This document shows, one piece after another, positions 12,966 to 24,501 of a stretch of 64,000 nucleotides of DNA. A program made the position numbers and the translations under genes. The DNA is taken from NCBI RefSeq assembly GCF_900143515.1, contig NZ_FSQT01000002.1, positions 2,295,501-2,359,500 of the forward strand. Reading direction: 5' to 3'. Each line of letters starts with the position of its first letter. Position 1 is the first letter of the stretch. The notes beneath the pieces were generated by a model. The model ran no database searches. It saw only the letters and a list, made by a program, of their open reading frames with translations, and was not told the DNA's origin. The stretch is from Micromonospora cremea (GTDB lineage: Bacteria > Actinomycetota > Actinomycetes > Mycobacteriales > Micromonosporaceae).

Positions 12966-15071
12966 TCAGTCGTCCAGCCAGTCGAGGCGTCGACCGCCCC
13001 GCTCGGTCGGCGGCGGGCTGTCCGCCGGCCGTGCCCGGCCGGCCTGCTGGCCGTAGCCGCCCTGGTCGTAGCCCCGGTCGTCGTAGCCGCCACCGCGCTG
13101 CGGCGGGGGCTCCTGGCCGTAGCCGCCCTGGTCGTACCCGCCGGCCTGCTGTCCGTAGCCGCCGCCCTGGTCGTAGCCCCGGTCGTCGTAGCCGCCACCG
13201 CGCTGCGGCGGGGGCTCCTGGCCGTAGCCGCCCTGGTTGTACCCGCCGGCCTGCTGTCCGTAGCCGCCGCCCTGGTCGTAGCCGCCGGCCTGCTGGCCGT
13301 AGCCACCGGTCGGCTCCGCCGCGCGACCGCCGTACGGGGCGGTGTCGGACTGACCGTAGCCCTGGCCCTGCTCCGGCTGGTAGACGCCGGTTGCGTACGG
13401 GTCGGCCGGAGCCGGGTACTGCGTGCTGTCGCCCGTGTACCGGCCGGTCGGCTCGTCGAAGCGCTCGCCGTAGGCCGGGCCGCCAGCGGGAGCCGGCGGG
13501 TAGCCGGCCGCACCGGCCGGGGCCGTGTAGTCGCGGCTGCCGTAGCCGCCGCCGGAGGAGGGCGCGCTGCCGTAGCCGCCGCCGGAGGAGGGCGCGCTGC
13601 CGTAGCCGCCACCGGAGGCCGGTGCGCCGCCGTAGCCGCCACCGGAGGCCGGTGCGCCGCCGTAGCCCGCACCGGAACCGGGCGCGGCACCGTAGCCGTC
13701 ACCGGCCGCGCCGGCGCCGTAGCCACCGTCGGGGGTGGCCGCCGTGCCGTAGCCGCCGCCCGAGGCGGGGGCGTTGCCGTAGCCGCCGGCACCGTACCCG
13801 CCGGATGCCGGCTCGTCGCCGTAGCCGGCGCCGCCCCAGCTCTGCTGGCCCGCCGCGCCGTACGGCTGCGCTGGCGCGCCGTACGGGTCCGGTGGGACGT
13901 CGTCGACCACCGGGCGGTGCATCATCGTCGGCGCCTCGCTCAGCGCCGCACCGCCGACCATCGTCGGGTCGGGTGCGCCGACGGGTCGGTTGACCACCCG
14001 GGTCTGGTCGTCGGCCCCGCGGAATCCGCCCCGGGCCGCCGGCACCGCGCCGGCCGCCCCGGCACCCGCCAGGTCGTCGTCCTCGTCGCCGTTCTCCTTG
14101 CGCCTCATCCAGAGCAGCACGATCGTGCCGACACCCGCGGCGACGAGCAGACCGCCGAGCAGGATGATCAGGTACGAGCTGAGGCTGCTGCCGTCTTCCT
14201 CGTTGGAGGCGTTCGCCGGGGCGGCCACGCTGGCTTCCTCGGTGGGCTCCTCCTCGGTGCCCTCCTCGACCGGTTCCTCGCTGGGGGTGGCCTCGGCGCT
14301 GGCGGACGGCGTGGGGCTCGGCGTCACCTCGACCTTGAGGGCCAGGCTGACCCGCTGGCCGGTGACAGACTGCCCGGCGCTCGCGTTGATGGTCTTCCGG
14401 CCGAGGACGTTGTCGAAGCTGGCGCCCAGCTCGAGCCGCCCGGGCGCGATCGGGTTGGCGGTGGTGCCGGTGAAGCGGAAGTTACCGCTGCCGTCGCTGG
14501 TGGTGTCGTGGCGCTTACCCCCGCTGTCCAGGAGCATCACGACTGCGTTGGGCACCGCGTCGCCGTTGGCCTGCACGACCACCTTGCCGGAGACCGACTT
14601 CACGGTCTGCGCCTGCTGCTGTTCGGGGCCGCGAACAGTGACATCCCGCTCGGCGCTGCCGGAGTCATCGCCGGCACTTGCGCTGATCTGGACCTTGCCG
14701 GACTTCGTGTCGCCTGCGGCGACGTTCCCGGCTACAAGCTCGACGCTGTAGGCCTTGGAGCTGCCGCGATCGATCTCCTCGGTGAAGTCACAGCGGCCGT
14801 TGCAGCTGAGTTCGCCGAAAGAGGTGCTGACTTTGACAGTCACCGAGTCGGAGTTTTCCGACCCAAGCTTGATGTTGTTGTTGGTCACTCGGAATGACAG
14901 CGTGGCGCGCTGACCGCTGGTCAGAGAGCCCGAAGACAAGTTAGTGATCTGTACGCCGGGTTCGGCGGCCAAGGCTGGTGTGGCGGGGACGGCGAGCAGA
15001 GCGCTGGCAACCAGCGCTACGACCACACCGGCCCGCTGCTTCCAGGCACGTCGGTGTGTTGACACGTCCAC
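12966..15071 (-). CDS. Exported single-pass membrane protein with Gly/Tyr/Gln repeat tail
   Basis: A 701-residue protein of unrecognised function. A signal peptide (about 1-36, VVVALVASALLAVPATPALA) is followed by an extracellular region with an Ig-like/CARDB-like segment holding a Cys pair (SCNGRC). A second Ig-like segment (VSGKVVVQANGDAVPNAVV, carboxypeptidase-regulatory type) comes next, then an acidic Ser/Pro/Glu linker. One membrane helix (YLIILLGGLLVAAGVGTIVLLW) is followed by RRK, so the tail faces the cytoplasm. The roughly 350-residue tail is disordered and built of GGYG, GQQAGGY and PPPQRGGGYDD units. It includes two exact-length 35-residue repeats and five 10-residue repeats. The gene lies antisense inside the purine region. 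Confidence 0.8.
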   Translation of the reverse strand: MDVSTHRRAWKQRAGVVVALVASALLAVPATPALAAEPGVQITNLSSGSLTSGQRATLSFRVTNNNIKLGSENSDSVTVKVSTSFGELSCNGRCDFTEEIDRGSSKAYSVELVAGNVAAGDTKSGKVQISASAGDDSGSAERDVTVRGPEQQQAQTVKSVSGKVVVQANGDAVPNAVVMLLDSGGKRHDTTSDGSGNFRFTGTTANPIAPGRLELGASFDNVLGRKTINASAGQSVTGQRVSLALKVEVTPSPTPSASAEATPSEEPVEEGTEEEPTEEASVAAPANASNEEDGSSLSSYLIILLGGLLVAAGVGTIVLLWMRRKENGDEDDDLAGAGAAGAVPAARGGFRGADDQTRVVNRPVGAPDPTMVGGAALSEAPTMMHRPVVDDVPPDPYGAPAQPYGAAGQQSWGGAGYGDEPASGGYGAGGYGNAPASGGGYGTAATPDGGYGAGAAGDGYGAAPGSGAGYGGAPASGGGYGGAPASGGGYGSAPSSGGGYGSAPSSGGGYGSRDYTAPAGAAGYPPAPAGGPAYGERFDEPTGRYTGDSTQYPAPADPYATGVYQPEQGQGYGQSDTAPYGGRAAEPTGGYGQQAGGYDQGGGYGQQAGGYNQGGYGQEPPPQRGGGYDDRGYDQGGGYGQQAGGYDQGGYGQEPPPQRGGGYDDRGYDQGGYGQQAGRARPADSPPPTERGGRRLDWLDD
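13060..13269. repeat. Two tandem 105-bp repeats inside a coding region
   Basis: The CCCTGGTCGTAGCC phase recurs at 13060, 13165 and 13270, giving two near-identical 105-bp units (35 codons each). They encode the GGYDDRGYDQGGGYGQQAGG-type unit of the membrane protein tail. Near-identity at DNA level points to recent duplication. Confidence 0.85.
13540..13689. repeat. Five tandem 30-bp repeats inside a coding region
   Basis: Units begin CCGTAGCCGCC at 13540, 13570, 13600, 13630 and 13660. They encode GGGYGSAPSS/GGGYGGAPAS decapeptides. The first two and the next two are identical pairs and the fifth is degenerate. Replication slippage is the likely origin. Confidence 0.85.
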
Positions 15072-17347: not shown

Positions 17348-18502
17348 GTGACGCACGTGTCCGAGCGCAGCGGCGCAGGAAGCAGCCCGACCGGTGCCGG
17401 CGGCGACCGCCAGCTCTGGACGGCCGGCGCCGGCCGTCAGGCGCGCAAACGCTCGGTCTCGTACGCCGACGCCGGGGTCTCCATCGACGCGGGCGACCGC
17501 GCGGTGGAGCTGCTCAAGTCGAAGGTGCGCCAGACCCGTCGCCCCGAGGTGCTGGGCGACCTCGGCGGCTTCGCGGGCCTGTTCCGGCTGGACACCACGA
17601 AGTACAAGAACCCGATCCTGGCCTCCTCCACGGACGGGGTGGGCACCAAACTGGTGATCGCCCAGCAGATGGACATCCACGACACGGTCGGCATCGACCT
17701 GGTCGCGATGGTCGTCGACGACCTGGTGGCCTGCGGTGCCGAGCCGCTCTTCCTGCTCGACTACATCGCAACCGGCGAGGTCGTACCGGACAAGGTCGCC
17801 GAAATCGGCGCCGGTATCGCCGACGGCTGCCGGTACGCCGGCTGCGCGCTGCTGGGCGGGGAGACCGCCGAGCACCCCGGCGTGCTCCGCCCGGACGAGT
17901 ACGACATCTCGGCGACCGGCGTCGGCGTGGTCGAGGAGGACGACATCCTCCGCCCGGACCGGGTCGAGGTGGGTGACGTGGTGATCGCCATGCGCTCCTC
18001 CGGCCTGCACTCCAACGGCTACTCGCTGGTCCGTCACGTGCTGCTCGGCGCGGCCCGGATGCGGCTGGACATCGTGATCGACGACTTCGGTCGGCAGCGG
18101 ACCCTGGGTGAGGAGCTGCTCACCCCGACCAAGATCTACGCCAAGGACTGCCTCAAGCTGATCGCCGAGGCCGAGGTGCGGGCACTGGCCCACGTCACCG
18201 GTGGTGGCATCCCCGGCAACCTGGTCCGGGTGCTGCCGGAGCACGTCGACGCGGTGGTCAACCGGTCCACCTGGAAGCCGCAGCCGGTCTTCGACCTGAT
18301 CCAGTCGAAGGGCCGGATCGACGACCCGGAGATGGAGTCGACCTTCAACATGGGTGTCGGCATGTTCGCCATCGTCTCGGCGGAGGACGCGGACCGGGCG
18401 CTAGCCACGCTGACCGGCCGTGGGGTCGAGGCGTGGCAGGCCGGCGAGATCATCGAGGGCACCGGCAACGTGCAGATGGTTGGCCAGCACACCCGCGGAT
18501 GA
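17348..18502 (+). CDS. purM: Phosphoribosylformylglycinamidine cyclo-ligase (AIR synthetase)
   Basis: A 384-residue protein with the PurM motifs SYADAGVSIDAGDR, SSTDGVGTKL, LLGGETAEHPG and THVTGGGIPGNL-like HVTGGGIPGN. It closes the imidazole ring, FGAM to AIR. GTG 17348 is preceded by AAGGGGAG at ideal spacing. The first 35 or so residues are a polar extension before the conserved body. It lies 62 bp after purF and likely shares its transcript. Confidence 0.96.
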   Translation: MTHVSERSGAGSSPTGAGGDRQLWTAGAGRQARKRSVSYADAGVSIDAGDRAVELLKSKVRQTRRPEVLGDLGGFAGLFRLDTTKYKNPILASSTDGVGTKLVIAQQMDIHDTVGIDLVAMVVDDLVACGAEPLFLLDYIATGEVVPDKVAEIGAGIADGCRYAGCALLGGETAEHPGVLRPDEYDISATGVGVVEEDDILRPDRVEVGDVVIAMRSSGLHSNGYSLVRHVLLGAARMRLDIVIDDFGRQRTLGEELLTPTKIYAKDCLKLIAEAEVRALAHVTGGGIPGNLVRVLPEHVDAVVNRSTWKPQPVFDLIQSKGRIDDPEMESTFNMGVGMFAIVSAEDADRALATLTGRGVEAWQAGEIIEGTGNVQMVGQHTRG

Positions 18503-18561
18503 TCACGCTCTGGTGATCGTACGGGCACCTGATCAGGGCTTCACCCGAGTGGCCGATGCCG

Positions 18562-18590
18562 CCTAGCCTGAAGGGCACCCTCAGGCTAGG
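18562..18590. promoter_or_regulatory. Inverted repeat just upstream of the radical-SAM gene
   Basis: The arms CCTAGCCTGA (18562-18571) and TCAGGCTAGG (18581-18590) are a perfect 10-bp inverted repeat with a 9-nt centre. It ends one base before GGAGGAGGGG, the ribosome-binding site for ATG 18604. TTCACC, an 18-nt gap and TAGCCT (18564-18569) could form a promoter whose -10 lies in the left arm. It may be an operator or an RNA hairpin masking translation. The AGGCTAGG half resembles iron-box halves but not the full consensus. Confidence 0.45.
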
Positions 18591-18603
18591 TGGAGGAGGG
18601 GCG

Positions 18604-19737
18604 ATGGCTGCTCGGGGACAGTCGTTCAGCGGGATGCGTGGTCTGGCCACGGTCCCGTCGTACGTCGTCATGCAGCCCACCACCCTCTGCAACCTCGACT
18701 GCGCGTACTGCTACCTGCCGTTCCGCGCCGCCGACCGGCGGATGCCGGTGCCGGTGGCCGAGGCGGTGGCGGCGGCGGTCAACCCGTGGGCGGCGGCCGG
18801 CCGGTTCTCGGTGGTCTGGCACGGCGGGGAGCCGCTGGCGGCCGGCCGGGAGTGGCTCGCCGACCTGATCGCCCCGTTCGGGCCCGAGGTCGAGCACCAC
18901 GTGCAGACCAACGCCACGCTGATCGACGACGACTGGTGCGCCTTCTTCGCCGAGCATGACGTGCGGGTGAGCGTGAGCGTGGACGGGCCCCGGGAGCGCA
19001 ACGGCGACCGGGTCAACCGGGGCGGCCAGCCTGCGTACGACCGGATCATGCGCGGGGTGGACGCGTTGCGCCGACACGGCCTGCCGTTCTCCGCGCTGGC
19101 CGTGGTGTCCCGGCCGGAGCCGGGGCTCGCCGCGGAGCTGTACGACTACTTCCTCGGCCTGGGCTGCGACGTGCTGGGCATCAACATCGAGGAGACCGAG
19201 GGGGTCAACACCCGGGACAACCGCCACGACCGGGCGGCGGTGACCACGTTCTGGGCCGAACTGGTGGCGGTCTGGCGCCGGGAGCCCCGGATCCACCTGC
19301 GCGAGATCGAGTGGTCGCTGCGCTACGCGGCGGCGGTGCTCGACGACTCGGCGGACGAGGTGCTGCCCCGGCGGCTGGACCCGATCCCGACCATCGGGCA
19401 CGACGGCTCGGTGACCGTGCTCTCCCCGGAACTCGCCGGCTTCACCGACCCTCATTACGGCGATTTCAGCAGCGGTAACGTGCTGACCACCCCGCTGGCC
19501 GAGATCCTCACCGGTGCCGGGGCGACCCCGTGGGTGGGCGAGTTCCTGGCCGGGGTGGAGGCGTGTCGGGCGTCCTGCCCCTACTTCGGCTTCTGCGGCG
19601 GTGGTCATGCCGCCAACCGCTACTTCGAGTTGGGGCGGTTTGACGGTACGGAGACCGAGCACTGCCGCAACAGCAAGATCCGCCTATTGGAGGGAGTGTT
19701 GGAGCATGCCCGAAACCACCAGTCACCGGCGACCTGA
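18604..19737 (+). CDS. Radical SAM/SPASM peptide maturase (candidate cyclophane-forming)
   Basis: A 377-residue enzyme. The radical-SAM cluster motif is CNLDCAYCY (Cys29, Cys33, Cys36), followed by VVWHGGEPL and VQTNATLIDD. The C-terminal SPASM/twitch region has Cys321, Cys325, Cys331 and Cys354 (CRASCPYFGFCGGGHAANRY), enough for auxiliary Fe-S ligation. This is the layout of RiPP maturases that crosslink aromatic side chains. Its 3' end overlaps a small ORF with a repetitive aromatic-x-Asn C-terminus, the probable substrate. GGAGGAGGGG gives strong initiation at ATG 18604. Class is secure; the exact chemistry is inferred. Confidence 0.9.
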   Translation: MAARGQSFSGMRGLATVPSYVVMQPTTLCNLDCAYCYLPFRAADRRMPVPVAEAVAAAVNPWAAAGRFSVVWHGGEPLAAGREWLADLIAPFGPEVEHHVQTNATLIDDDWCAFFAEHDVRVSVSVDGPRERNGDRVNRGGQPAYDRIMRGVDALRRHGLPFSALAVVSRPEPGLAAELYDYFLGLGCDVLGINIEETEGVNTRDNRHDRAAVTTFWAELVAVWRREPRIHLREIEWSLRYAAAVLDDSADEVLPRRLDPIPTIGHDGSVTVLSPELAGFTDPHYGDFSSGNVLTTPLAEILTGAGATPWVGEFLAGVEACRASCPYFGFCGGGHAANRYFELGRFDGTETEHCRNSKIRLLEGVLEHARNHQSPAT

Positions 19738-19942
19738 ACGCGGAGCGGATGACGCTCCGGACGGAGTCGCCGAGCGGGTGCGGGAGGTGGCCCCAGGGCT
19801 CGTCGCGCTCCTTCAGGAGGCCGAGGACGCGCGGCGACTGCGGGCGGAGGTGCCGGGCGGGGGCGGCACCAGCGCCGTCTGCGCCTGGAACCACTTCGAG
19901 AACATCCCGACCTTCTACAACTGGAACAACCGACCGCGCTGA
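19706..19942 (+). CDS. Candidate RiPP precursor peptide
   Basis: A 78-residue peptide that starts inside the maturase gene (32-nt overlap), with GGAGGGAG about 9 nt upstream of ATG 19706. Residues 1-54 form a charged leader containing VAERVREVAPGLVALLQEAEDA-like helix pieces. After PGGGGTS comes a core of about 20 residues with Cys59, Trp61, Phe64, Phe70, Tyr71 and Trp73. Three aromatic-x-Asn triplets occur: F64-E-N66, F70-Y-N72 and W73-N-N75. Such triplets are the substrates of three-residue cyclophane-forming radical SAM enzymes. No protease or transporter gene is adjacent. A hairpin follows directly. Confidence 0.78.
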   Translation: MPETTSHRRPERGADDAPDGVAERVREVAPGLVALLQEAEDARRLRAEVPGGGGTSAVCAWNHFENIPTFYNWNNRPR

Positions 19943-19951
19943 CGGTGACCG

Positions 19952-20009
19952 CGATCAGGGGCCTGTCGGCCGGCCGGAGTGATCTCCAGCCAGGGCAGGC
20001 CCCTGATCG
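19952..20009 (+). terminator. Terminator hairpin after the RiPP precursor ORF
   Basis: The perfect 14-bp arms CGATCAGGGGCCTG (19952-19965) and 19996-20009 enclose a 30-nt loop containing GGCCGGCC. It lies 9 nt past the stop codon and so closes the maturase-precursor transcript. Confidence 0.7.
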
Positions 20010-20043
20010 TCGGCACCAGTGTCGCTCCCGACGGGCACATGCG

Positions 20044-20071
20044 TGAGCACGCGGGGGTCACCGCGTGCTCA
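20044..20071 (-). terminator. Terminator hairpin after the DUF3073 gene
   Basis: The perfect 10-bp stem TGAGCACGCG / CGCGTGCTCA has an 8-nt loop. It lies 14 nt beyond the DUF3073 stop on the minus strand. Confidence 0.65.
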
Positions 20072-20085
20072 GCTACGTCGAGAGG

Positions 20086-20301
20086 TCAGCGGGTCGGACG
20101 GATCCAGGGATCCGGGTCGTCGTCCGCGTGATCCTCATCATCGTCGTCGACGAACTCTTTAGAGTCGTCGTCGAAGTGGTGCTCAGACTTACCAGCACCC
20201 GCCAGTTCACGCTGCAAGGCGGTGAGGTCGGTGTTCGGGGAGTGGTACTTCAACTCCCGGGCCACCTTCGTCTGCTTGGCCTTAGCACGGCCGCGCCCCA
20301 T
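20086..20301 (-). CDS. DUF3073 family protein
   Basis: A 71-residue protein that begins MGRGRAKAKQTKVARELKY, the highly conserved basic start of the actinobacterial DUF3073 family. It continues HSPNTDLTALQRELAG and ends in a very acidic tail (DDDSKEFVDDDDEDHADDD). The charge split suggests a nucleic-acid or protein-binding role, but none is established. ATG 20301 is fixed by the conserved N-terminus. It is monocistronic. Confidence 0.9.
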   Translation of the reverse strand: MGRGRAKAKQTKVARELKYHSPNTDLTALQRELAGAGKSEHHFDDDSKEFVDDDDEDHADDDPDPWIRPTR

Positions 20302-20600
20302 GGCTCGACCCCCTCGCACAGAATGCGGGGCAGCCCGAAGGCGGGCCCCGATGACGTCAGGCATCTCTCGTGGCTCTTACGGTACATGGGGATGCCATCG
20401 TTCGGCACCTCGGGTTACCGTCAGCCGGCTCTGCGAGTCGCGGCGATCCGGCCGTCACCCAGTGTACCTGGTAAGGAGCGGGACGGAGAGCACCCGTGAC
20501 ACCAGACAAAACACCTTAAACTTGACCCGGCCCCAGCCTACCGATCGCGGGCCGGCGGGGGGCCCGGAGGCGGATCCGATCGGTCCGCCTCCGGGAACAC

Positions 20601-21683: not shown

Positions 21684-21877
21684 GGCTTGCTCCTGGAGTG
21701 GTGTGCGCCCTTGTGGGACGCGGACCTGGTGGACCCCGGCGGGGATGCTGCCGGTGTGGGTCGAGCCTAGTATCGGCCGCCGTGGCGTCGCCCGACGCGC
21801 CGCCGCCGTCTCACGTTGCGGCGCGCGTGGTCCGGCCGCTGACCGCGTCCGGGTGCGGTTCGTGGGAGGATCGCGCC

Positions 21878-22717
21878 GTGCCGTCGCTCTTCGCTTCTTA
21901 CCTGCGCGTGTACGAACCGCTGACCGCCTTCGACCGGGACCGCCAGAGCTACTGGCGCCGCTACGTCTCCGAGGGGCGGGCGGTGGCCCCGGTGGAGGGC
22001 CCCGGCCGGCAGCGGACGGCGGTGATCGAGGCGCTGGGCGCCGGCTGGACGCGGTTGCCGGACCCGCCGGACGAGGCGTACGTCCTGGAGACGGACGACA
22101 GCCTGCTGGTCTGCCCATGGAACCTGCGGATCCGGGTCGCTGAGGCGGCGCTCAGCGCCCGGGACGGGGTGCCCGCGGTGCTCGCCGACGCCTTCGTGCC
22201 GCCGGTGCTGGCCGGACAGGCCAGGGCGGTCGTCGACGACTGGCGCAGCGGCGCCCGGGTGCTCGAGCACGGCGTGCCCCGGGTGCACGAGCAGATCGCC
22301 ACCTGGGGTGTGCCGCTGCGCTGGTTCGTGCTCTTCGACCCGACGGAGCGGGACCTGGTCACCCAGCCGGGCCGGCGGGCGCTGCGCTACCGCACCGAGA
22401 TCTCCAAGGCCCGCCGCCGCTCGTCCCGGGCACTCTCGGTGCTGCGCAAGTCGGTGGGCGAGGCGCCGATCACGGAGGCGGTGGAGGAGGCGGCCCGCTG
22501 GCTGGAGGAGTTCCACCCGCGCTCGGTGGTGGAGTTGGACTACGGCGGCCTGGTCGACCTGCTCTCCGATGAGACGCTGGCCGCGGACGACTCGCCTGAG
22601 CTGGTCGCTGGCGGTCTCGCCGGGCTGTCCCGTGGTGAGGCCGACGAGGCGTCCGCCGCGTACGACAAGCTGGTGGCACGGTGGCGCGCGGTGCAGCTGC
22701 TGGAGCGGTGCAACTGA
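21878..22717 (+). CDS. Conserved actinobacterial protein of unknown function (between vdh and bldC)
   Basis: A 279-residue cytoplasmic protein beginning [25 protein letters not shown]. It has a central [38 protein letters not shown] basic helix and a C-terminal Ala/Glu-rich helical region. No signal peptide, membrane helix or known catalytic motif was seen. GTG 21878 has GGGAGGA 7 nt upstream. The same order, vdh then unknown then bldC, is known in Streptomyces, so the gene is conserved in place. No function is assigned. Confidence 0.75.
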
Positions 22718-23278: not shown

Positions 23279-23668
23279 TCAGCCCTGCCCCTCGGCAAGC
23301 GTCAACCGGATGCCGACCGTGCCACCCTCACCCCGGCGCAGCCGGCTGCCCAGCAGGCTCAGTCGACCGAGCAGCCGGTACTTGTGCTTGAGCAGGTCGC
23401 GTACCCGGCCGGTGTCGCCGTTGCCGTAGATCGTCGCGTGGGCTGGCACCTCCGCCCCGTGCGGCCGGCCCCGCACGTCGCACGGCGCCACGGTCACATC
23501 GCCGTTGCGGCGGATCCGCTTCACCTTGCCCGAGTCGGCCCGCGTCCAGACCGCCAGCGCCTCGCCGTCGCGTACCGACCAGACGGGGGTCGGCACCGCC
23601 CGACCGTCCTTGCGGAAGGTCGTGAGCAGGATGTACTTCTCGGCCGACAGTCGGTCCAGCGTGGTCAC
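23279..23668 (-). CDS. PPOX-class (F420-dependent/pyridoxamine oxidase-like) protein
   Basis: A 129-residue split-barrel protein. MTTLDRLSAEKYILLTTFRKDGRAVPTPVW is the standard opening of the small PPOX-class F420-dependent enzymes (seen as KYILLTTFRKDG and VPTPVW). Later come GKVKRIRRNGDVTVAPCDVRGRP and a C-terminal KYRLLGRLSLLG. It probably binds F420 or a flavin and reduces a small cytoplasmic substrate. It stands alone and diverges from the methyltransferase gene. Confidence 0.85.
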   Translation of the reverse strand: MTTLDRLSAEKYILLTTFRKDGRAVPTPVWSVRDGEALAVWTRADSGKVKRIRRNGDVTVAPCDVRGRPHGAEVPAHATIYGNGDTGRVRDLLKHKYRLLGRLSLLGSRLRRGEGGTVGIRLTLAEGQG

Positions 23669-23721: not shown

Positions 23722-24501
23722 ATGACGGGGGAACCTCAAATCGGTGACGTGATCGGCGAACTGCTGCGGGACACCCTCGCCGTGGCCACCGGGGTGGGCC
23801 CCCGGCCGCTGGTCGGCGGGCGGCTGCCCCGGCCGGTCATCGAGATCATCGAGCGGGACGACGGGTTGATCAATGGCGCGCCGGCCGCGCACTACCTGGA
23901 CGGGCCAGCGGACTGGCAGCCGTACGACCACCGGGCGGTGGACCGGGTCCGGGGCGAGACGCTGGACATCGGCACCGGTGCCGGCCGGATCGCGCTGCTG
24001 CTCCAGGAGCGCGGCGTACCGGTCACCGGGCTGGACACCTCGGCGGGGGCGCTGGCGGTGAGCCGGCGCCGCGGCGTCCGGCGACTGGTGCACGGCACCG
24101 TCGACACGCACGTGGCCGACGGCCGGCGGTACGACACGTTCCTGCTCCTCGGCAACAACCTGGGGCTGTTCGAGGGGCGGGAGCGGGCACCGGAGTTCCT
24201 GGCCGCGCTCGCCGCGCTGGCCCGGCCAGGGGCGCAGATCATCGCGCACGGCACCGACCCGTACGGCACCCGCGACCCGCTGCACACCGGCTACCACGAG
24301 CGCAACCGCCGCCGGGGCCGGCTCGGCGGCCAGCTCCGGCTCCGGCTGCGCTACCGGGAGCTGGGCACCGACTGGTTCGACTACCTGGTCTGCTCGGCGG
24401 ACGAGTTCGGCGCGCTGGTGCAGGGCAGCGGCTGGCGGCTGACCGATGTGGACGACCGTGACGCCCCCTACTACCTGGCCACCCTGCGCCTCGCCGACTG
24501 A
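23722..24501 (+). CDS. SAM-dependent methyltransferase (class I)
   Basis: A 259-residue protein. Motif I is LDIGTGAGRIALLL near residue 75, the acidic loop is VTGLDTSAGAL, and a later LLLGNNLGLFEG marks the active-site side. The substrate is not evident; the N-terminal 60 residues are probably the lid. TAGCGT lies 6 nt before ATG 23722 and no Shine-Dalgarno is obvious, so the mRNA may be leaderless. It ends before a strong bidirectional terminator. Confidence 0.8.
   Translation: MTGEPQIGDVIGELLRDTLAVATGVGPRPLVGGRLPRPVIEIIERDDGLINGAPAAHYLDGPADWQPYDHRAVDRVRGETLDIGTGAGRIALLLQERGVPVTGLDTSAGALAVSRRRGVRRLVHGTVDTHVADGRRYDTFLLLGNNLGLFEGRERAPEFLAALAALARPGAQIIAHGTDPYGTRDPLHTGYHERNRRRGRLGGQLRLRLRYRELGTDWFDYLVCSADEFGALVQGSGWRLTDVDDRDAPYYLATLRLAD

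Follow-up and report, generated by a model that had tools for sequence, protein, structure and literature searches.

A purM-linked amcBA locus of Micromonospora cremea with a nearly invariant core and a predicted three-ring triceptide product

What does a radical-SAM maturase gene that overlaps a small open reading frame (ORF) make, and why does the predicted product hardly vary among relatives? We addressed this question for a gene pair in a 64,000-nt stretch of the M. cremea genome (hereafter the window). The first gene, amcB (18604-19737, + strand), encodes a radical-SAM/SPASM cyclophane-forming maturase of 377 aa, and the second, amcA (19706-19942, + strand), encodes a type 3a precursor peptide of 78 aa whose start sits inside amcB, giving an overlap of 32 nt. 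A purine-rich Shine-Dalgarno-like stretch lies ahead of both genes. A sequence-only reading of this DNA had described the enzyme, the 78-residue ORF beginning 32 nt within its gene, and a C-terminal aromatic/Asn core of the cyclophane RiPP class, but could name no family for the pair. The coordinates were confirmed and the class is supported by curated AmcB and AmcA models, whereas the statement on the family has been superseded.

Both proteins were searched against RiPP family models, as that reading had proposed. AmcB scores 516 bits against NF041718 (“cyclophane-forming radical SAM peptide maturase AmcB”; curated equivalog cut-off 425), with an alignment that covers profile positions 1-361 of 362, and it carries Pfam Radical_SAM. 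AmcA scores 116.9 bits against NF041722 (“multiple cyclophane-containing RiPP AmcA,” type 3a; curated cut-off 65). It falls below the cut-off of the type 3b model NF041723 (37.8 bits, cut-off 65), and the type 1 model NF041721 is absent from the families that it matches up to E 1. The pair can be placed because both proteins exceed the curated AmcB and AmcA-3a cut-offs; judged by these models, amcB and amcA are an already known system, the named AmcA/AmcB family. There are 1045 AmcA homologues at E ≤ 0.001, and among the best 120 of these 1045 many are named AmcA, mostly from Micromonospora; public records already give this name to relatives of 91% identity. Literature searches found nothing relevant on AmcA/AmcB by name except the title of a study of the enzyme ChlB, and no relevant paper on Micromonospora cyclophanes. 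Phan and Morinaka 2022 (ACS Chem. Biol. 17:3284) is said to be the founding paper.

The cluster cysteines listed in the sequence-only reading proved intact. Cys 29, 33, and 36 of AmcB form the CX3CX2C radical-SAM motif, Cys 321, 325, 331, and 354 form a SPASM-type C-terminal set, and all seven are invariant among 24 aligned homologues with both Amc types included; further cysteines are found at 112 and 188. The structure of AmcB was predicted with AlphaFold2 (pLDDT 89.0, pTM 0.88), and the best PDB match of the model is ChlB complexed with its precursor ChlA (9gmc, 9gm3; E 3.9e-20, TM about 0.70). The anaerobic sulfatase maturases 4k36-4k39 are nearly as close. Since ChlB and the sulfatase maturases score almost equally, the fold alone is no proof of cyclophane chemistry. 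ChlB also matches AmcB in sequence over residues 25-356 (9e-14), with the four C-terminal cysteines in the matching region kept, and by the title of its study it is reportedly a multiple cyclophane synthase.

The usual place of amcBA is between purM and a DUF3073-dehydrogenase-bldC block, and the neighbours in the window are PurF (531.7 bits, cut-off 350), PurM (446.1 bits, cut-off 236), DUF3073, a Glu/Leu/Phe/Val-type dehydrogenase, and a BldC-family regulator (107.5 bits, cut-off 77). We collected 40 loci from 36 genomes of the Micromonosporaceae, hand-picked across genera and including six that, on purpose or in effect, represent the amcB paralogue. DUF3073, the dehydrogenase, and BldC stand beside amcB in 34 of the 40 loci, and PurM as well in 33 of these 34 (L064 runs off its contig). 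Full gene order is kept in 29 loci and is rearranged on one side in L051, L052, L063, and L077, according to coordinates read by eye. The remaining six loci hold the paralogue, 38-42% identical, in unrelated places. Furthermore, a degenerate core search of one-genome-per-species contigs matched at least 120 stretches; among the matches listed (80 named loci), PurM and/or DUF3073 was found within the 8-kb piece in all 80 and both in 63. By title, these 80 listed loci all belong to Micromonosporaceae genera, except one titled Verrucosispora, a name absent from the taxonomy list. A neighbourhood table of homologues had been suggested earlier as a check, and in it precursor and maturase keep the purM/DUF3073 setting.

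Whether homologues of the maturase keep the small ORF next to them had likewise been named as decisive, and the ORF is conserved: with a motif filter, it was extracted from 44 of 46 purM-linked loci, in the same relative frame overlap with the end of the maturase gene. L052 has a precursor outside these 44 extractions, and L167 (purM-linked AmcB, 63% identity, 452 bits, scored as L122) shows no recognisable AmcA downstream in the fetched stretch. As the sequence-only reading had noted, no protease or exporter is adjacent. By Pfam, neither an exporter nor a RiPP protease was found in the ORFs at 12969-15071, 21698-22714, 23282-23668, and 23722-24498, and the neighbours scanned include no exporter, immunity gene, or protease.

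The gap between purM and amcB contains a promoter-like element, TTCACC-N18-TAGCCT (18540-18569, + strand). The pattern TTCACC-N16-19-TANNNT, which was written after viewing the sequences, occurs upstream of amcB in 23 of 44 purM-linked loci across genera, versus 0 of 4400 mononucleotide shuffles, and several other loci retain only the CCTAGCCTGA part of the upstream region. This recurrence suggests that amcB has a promoter of its own, distinct from that of purM. Between this element and the start of amcB, in the 18565-18594 region, is a 10-bp inverted repeat (CCTAGCCTGA...TCAGGCTAGG, loop 9), of which a few relatives have partial versions. Downstream of amcA, a hairpin with 14-bp perfect arms (19952-20009, + strand) is a candidate for the 3' end of the transcript. 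A second hairpin follows at 20044-20071 (position read by eye), with 11-bp perfect arms TGAGCACGCGG/CCGCGTGCTCA and a loop of 6; the TGAGCACGCGG/CCGCGTGCTCA arms recur downstream of amcA in L039, L042, L062, and L170. The 143 nt from 19943 to 20085, with both hairpins inside, fold with z = −6.99, and a perfect stem of at least 10 bp is found within 160 nt of amcA in 28 of 44 loci (at most 9 in shuffles), although its sequence varies. The first hairpin had been said earlier to close the unit; its presence stands, and closure is plausible. Its role as a terminator between convergent genes is putative, since the hairpin has no U-run and the terminator scan returned no terminator-like site. A classic U-run terminator and a generic sigma-70 promoter were rejected, since the scans found neither (the 18540-18569 element gave no sigma-70 hit), and positions 18400-20500 contain no known RNA family at the gathering threshold.

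How widely is the pair distributed? AmcB scores above cut-off in 161 and AmcA-3a in 148 of 200 sampled Micromonosporaceae genomes. In a class-wide sample of 393 genomes, nine are above the AmcB cut-off, four from the genus itself and five from one other family; the small ORF beside those five has an FDN/WDN-type core and is not type 3. A search with AmcA type 3b did not widen this picture, because none of the 393 genomes was above its cut-off. These model-based genome counts do not preselect what they describe, unlike the motif filter, the core pattern, and the WNHFEN choice used for the precursor comparisons. The amc locus is dispensable, since no AmcB was found beside purM in 14 fetched loci from genera whose genomes lack AmcB above cut-off. 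In two such loci (L147, L154), the space between purM and DUF3073 is a short gap or holds an ORF that by eye resembles GNAT. Pairwise distances of PurM and AmcB are correlated with r = 0.80 (990 non-independent pairs), which is no lower than the 0.71 for PurF and PurM. Together, synteny and correlated distances are consistent with a vertically inherited locus that some genera lack or have lost.

Micromonosporaceae genomes also carry other amcB genes, 39-45% identical and located beside FDNRPTWDN-type precursors. Three tested precursors of this kind pass the type 1 model NF041721 (cut-off 40) with 66.9, 62.0, and 54.0 bits, the last from the genome of M. cremea itself. A pentapeptide-repeat ORF accompanies 22 of 24 group-1 loci (17 of 19 distinct places), versus 0 of 45 purM-linked loci, and Pfam confirms the repeat in three such ORFs. 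The gene comes after the type-1 precursor, e.g., at L041:8216-8569 and L161:7436-7861 and in L008, L012, and L013. Because DNA gyrase is protected by certain pentapeptide-repeat proteins, the gene in the group-1 loci might act as a partner or in immunity, which is a lead. The M. cremea copy is a second amc system, type 1 (L007:2235-3608; G000:C1 about 682725-684107), in which the maturase is broken into pieces that lie in different frames. The neighbouring 60-aa precursor ORF is intact (2902-3084 in L007; 54 bits against NF041721), and a pentapeptide-repeat ORF is also present there (3156-3608 in L007).

The C-terminal core of AmcA, VCAWNHFENIPTFYNWNNRPR (residues 58-78; 19877-19939, + strand), is where conservation of the precursor is concentrated. 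Of the precursors extracted from 44 loci, 33 carry a type-3a core and the remaining 11 a different one. Among the 33 type-3a precursors, which were preselected for WNHFEN so that six of the 20 core residues are fixed by that choice, the first 20 core residues have a mean identity of 98.9%, with pS 0.386, pN 0.0057, and pN/pS 0.015. For the leader outside the gene overlap, the same 33 precursors give an identity of 51.3%, with pS 0.521, pN 0.331, and pN/pS 0.635. Of 19 core codons, 13 differ between loci by synonymous changes alone, one has an amino-acid change (Y/F), and five do not vary, in a set of 52 of 61 loci that match (and are preselected by) the core pattern, come in some cases from one genome, and overlap the 33-precursor set. 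The predominance of synonymous change indicates that selection acts on the peptide and not on the DNA. A GGGG hinge proposed in the sequence-only reading is not conserved among relatives, and GGGG was rejected as a cleavage hinge for this reason.

Divergent cores help to locate the rings. The 11 divergent cores, e.g., WRPFEDAFPTFYQFTNRPR, GWRAFEDSFPTFYEFTNRPR, GWRAFSDAFPTFWEFSNRPR, and APRWTDVFTTQFTEFSNRPR, keep three aromatic-X-acceptor motifs when set against AWNHFENIPTFYNWNNRPR, namely F/W-x-N/D, F-x-N/Q/E, and W/F-x-N, and then RP. In M. cremea the predicted ring motifs, all on the + strand, are F64-E-N66 (19895-19903; FED, FSD, or WTD in divergent relatives), F70-Y-N72 (19913-19921; FFN, FYQ, FYE, FWE, or FTE in relatives), and W73-N-N75 (19922-19930; in divergent relatives FSN or FTN). 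Type 3a precursors all share W61-N-H63, whereas divergent precursors read GPRP, WRP, or WRA at this position. Because the three motifs are kept and W61-N-H63 is not, AmcA is predicted to be cross-linked at F64-N66, F70-N72, and W73-N75. The divergent precursors L162 (104 bits) and L169 (69 bits) pass the type 3b model (cut-off 65), and L163 passes neither 3a nor 3b (21.5 and 16.2 bits). L163, L168, and L171 contain purM-adjoining AmcA-like precursors with APRWTDVFTTQFTEFSNRPR cores, of which the L163 kind lies outside the current models.

AmcB would bind the helical part of the AmcA leader, and in each aromatic-X-X motif a 5'-deoxyadenosyl radical would strip the third residue of a beta-hydrogen. 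The resulting beta-carbon would be joined to the aromatic ring, three times in all (F64-N66, F70-N72, W73-N75), with a loss of 2 Da per ring and −6 Da in total. The leader may then be removed by an unlinked protease, or not at all. We ascribe beta-hydrogen chemistry to AmcB because known triceptide chemistry works in this way: the third residue loses a beta-hydrogen and becomes bonded to the ring (as described in PMC11002830 and PMC12257519).

Taken as a whole, amcBA is probably a two-gene triceptide (three-residue cyclophane) locus whose peptide carries three rings and whose product most likely has a conserved role in the producing cell, either intracellular or as a conserved signal. The producing-cell role is favoured because the core hardly varies and the locus appears to be vertically inherited in a fixed housekeeping neighbourhood; an invariant core in constant synteny points to such a role more than to an antibiotic under diversification. 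Use of the product by the producing cell is the least certain step, since a conserved target outside the cell would hold the core constant as well. The same chemistry could yield a secreted specialised metabolite, an antimicrobial or a signal for other cells, with general enzymes responsible for its release and export. We consider this improbable. In its favour, secretion is common among RiPPs, antibiotics such as darobactin and dynobactin are made by structurally related enzymes (PMC12257519), and DynA and DarE are NCBIfam neighbours. It is opposed by the near invariance of the core, by the scanned neighbours, which hold no exporter, immunity gene, or protease, and by the purM-linked locus itself, which does not look mobile, unlike group 1 with its accessory gene.

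The ring pattern assumed in the preferred three-ring reading has an alternative of its own. AmcA may bear four rings, W61-H63 included, or linked rings across F70-Y71-N72-W73-N74-N75, e.g., via Y71. The invariance of W61-N-H63 in type 3a would allow a fourth ring, and ring chemistry of other enzymes is known on many third residues (PMC11002830); however, divergent precursors have no aromatic-X-acceptor motif at the W61/H63 position while they keep the other three, and we regard such a pattern as doubtful. Finally, spurious ORFs abound in high-GC DNA (89 ORFs of at least 40 aa within 11 kb), but that amcA is a chance overlapping ORF and no precursor can be dismissed with near certainty, as it matches the curated model NF041722, shares its frame overlap with the maturase across 44 loci, and shows a mainly synonymous codon pattern, in loci preselected by the core pattern and partly from one genome, that already contradicts chance.

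The system is known, and it is the pattern of conservation that is worth following. A cofactor or a cell-intrinsic regulator would be expected to show just this: a RiPP core that stays nearly constant in many genera and always in one housekeeping setting. We tentatively suggest, with somewhat less than even confidence, that the purM-linked type-3 product belongs to the core biology of the Micromonosporaceae as a RiPP that is cofactor-like or regulates within the cell, a three-ring peptide whose sequence is frozen by work with a conserved partner in the producing cell, much as for PQQ or mycofactocin. In this reading the group-1 cassettes, with their pentapeptide-repeat partner, would by contrast look like ordinary accessory systems. 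In a passage of the review PMC12257519, triceptide bioactivities are described as not elucidated. The purM-linked amc locus offers a testable case for triceptide function, and the group-1 contrast with its pentapeptide-repeat gene offers a second, separate handle.

PQQ and mycofactocin are RiPP-derived cofactors in which the modified core is fixed since the product is the cofactor. They provide the precedent for a peptide with a fixed modified core, but the amc pair has no sequence membership in either: AmcB is not a mycofactocin maturase (TIGR03962; 39.5 bits, cut-off 265), and PqqE is only a distant fold match to the AmcB model. GrrM/OscB, FxsB, XyeB, and YhhB, which form three-residue cyclophanes, share the superfamily and SPASM layout of AmcB; membership was rejected for GrrM/OscB (TIGR04261; 238.4 bits, cut-off 310), FxsB (TIGR04269; 86.7 bits, cut-off 370), XyeB (62 bits, cut-off 450), and YhhB (98 bits, cut-off 445). 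ChlB-ChlA (PDB 9gm3, 9gmc) is the top structural match, with the four C-terminal cluster cysteines aligned, but ChlB is about 20% identical to AmcB, and ChlA is unrelated to AmcA by the searches made. AmcA type 1 and its AmcB paralogue fall under the same AmcB model (the L041 maturase scores 555 bits) and share C-terminal aromatic-X-Asn motifs; they differ in the FDNRPTWDN-type core, in lying off purM in seven fetched group-1 loci, and in the pentapeptide-repeat gene that usually follows. From the AmcA/AmcB type 3a family the window pair does not differ: it is above both cut-offs and has the same gene order, and its 91%-identity relatives are named AmcA. Core invariance and purM linkage are traits of the type and not of the strain.
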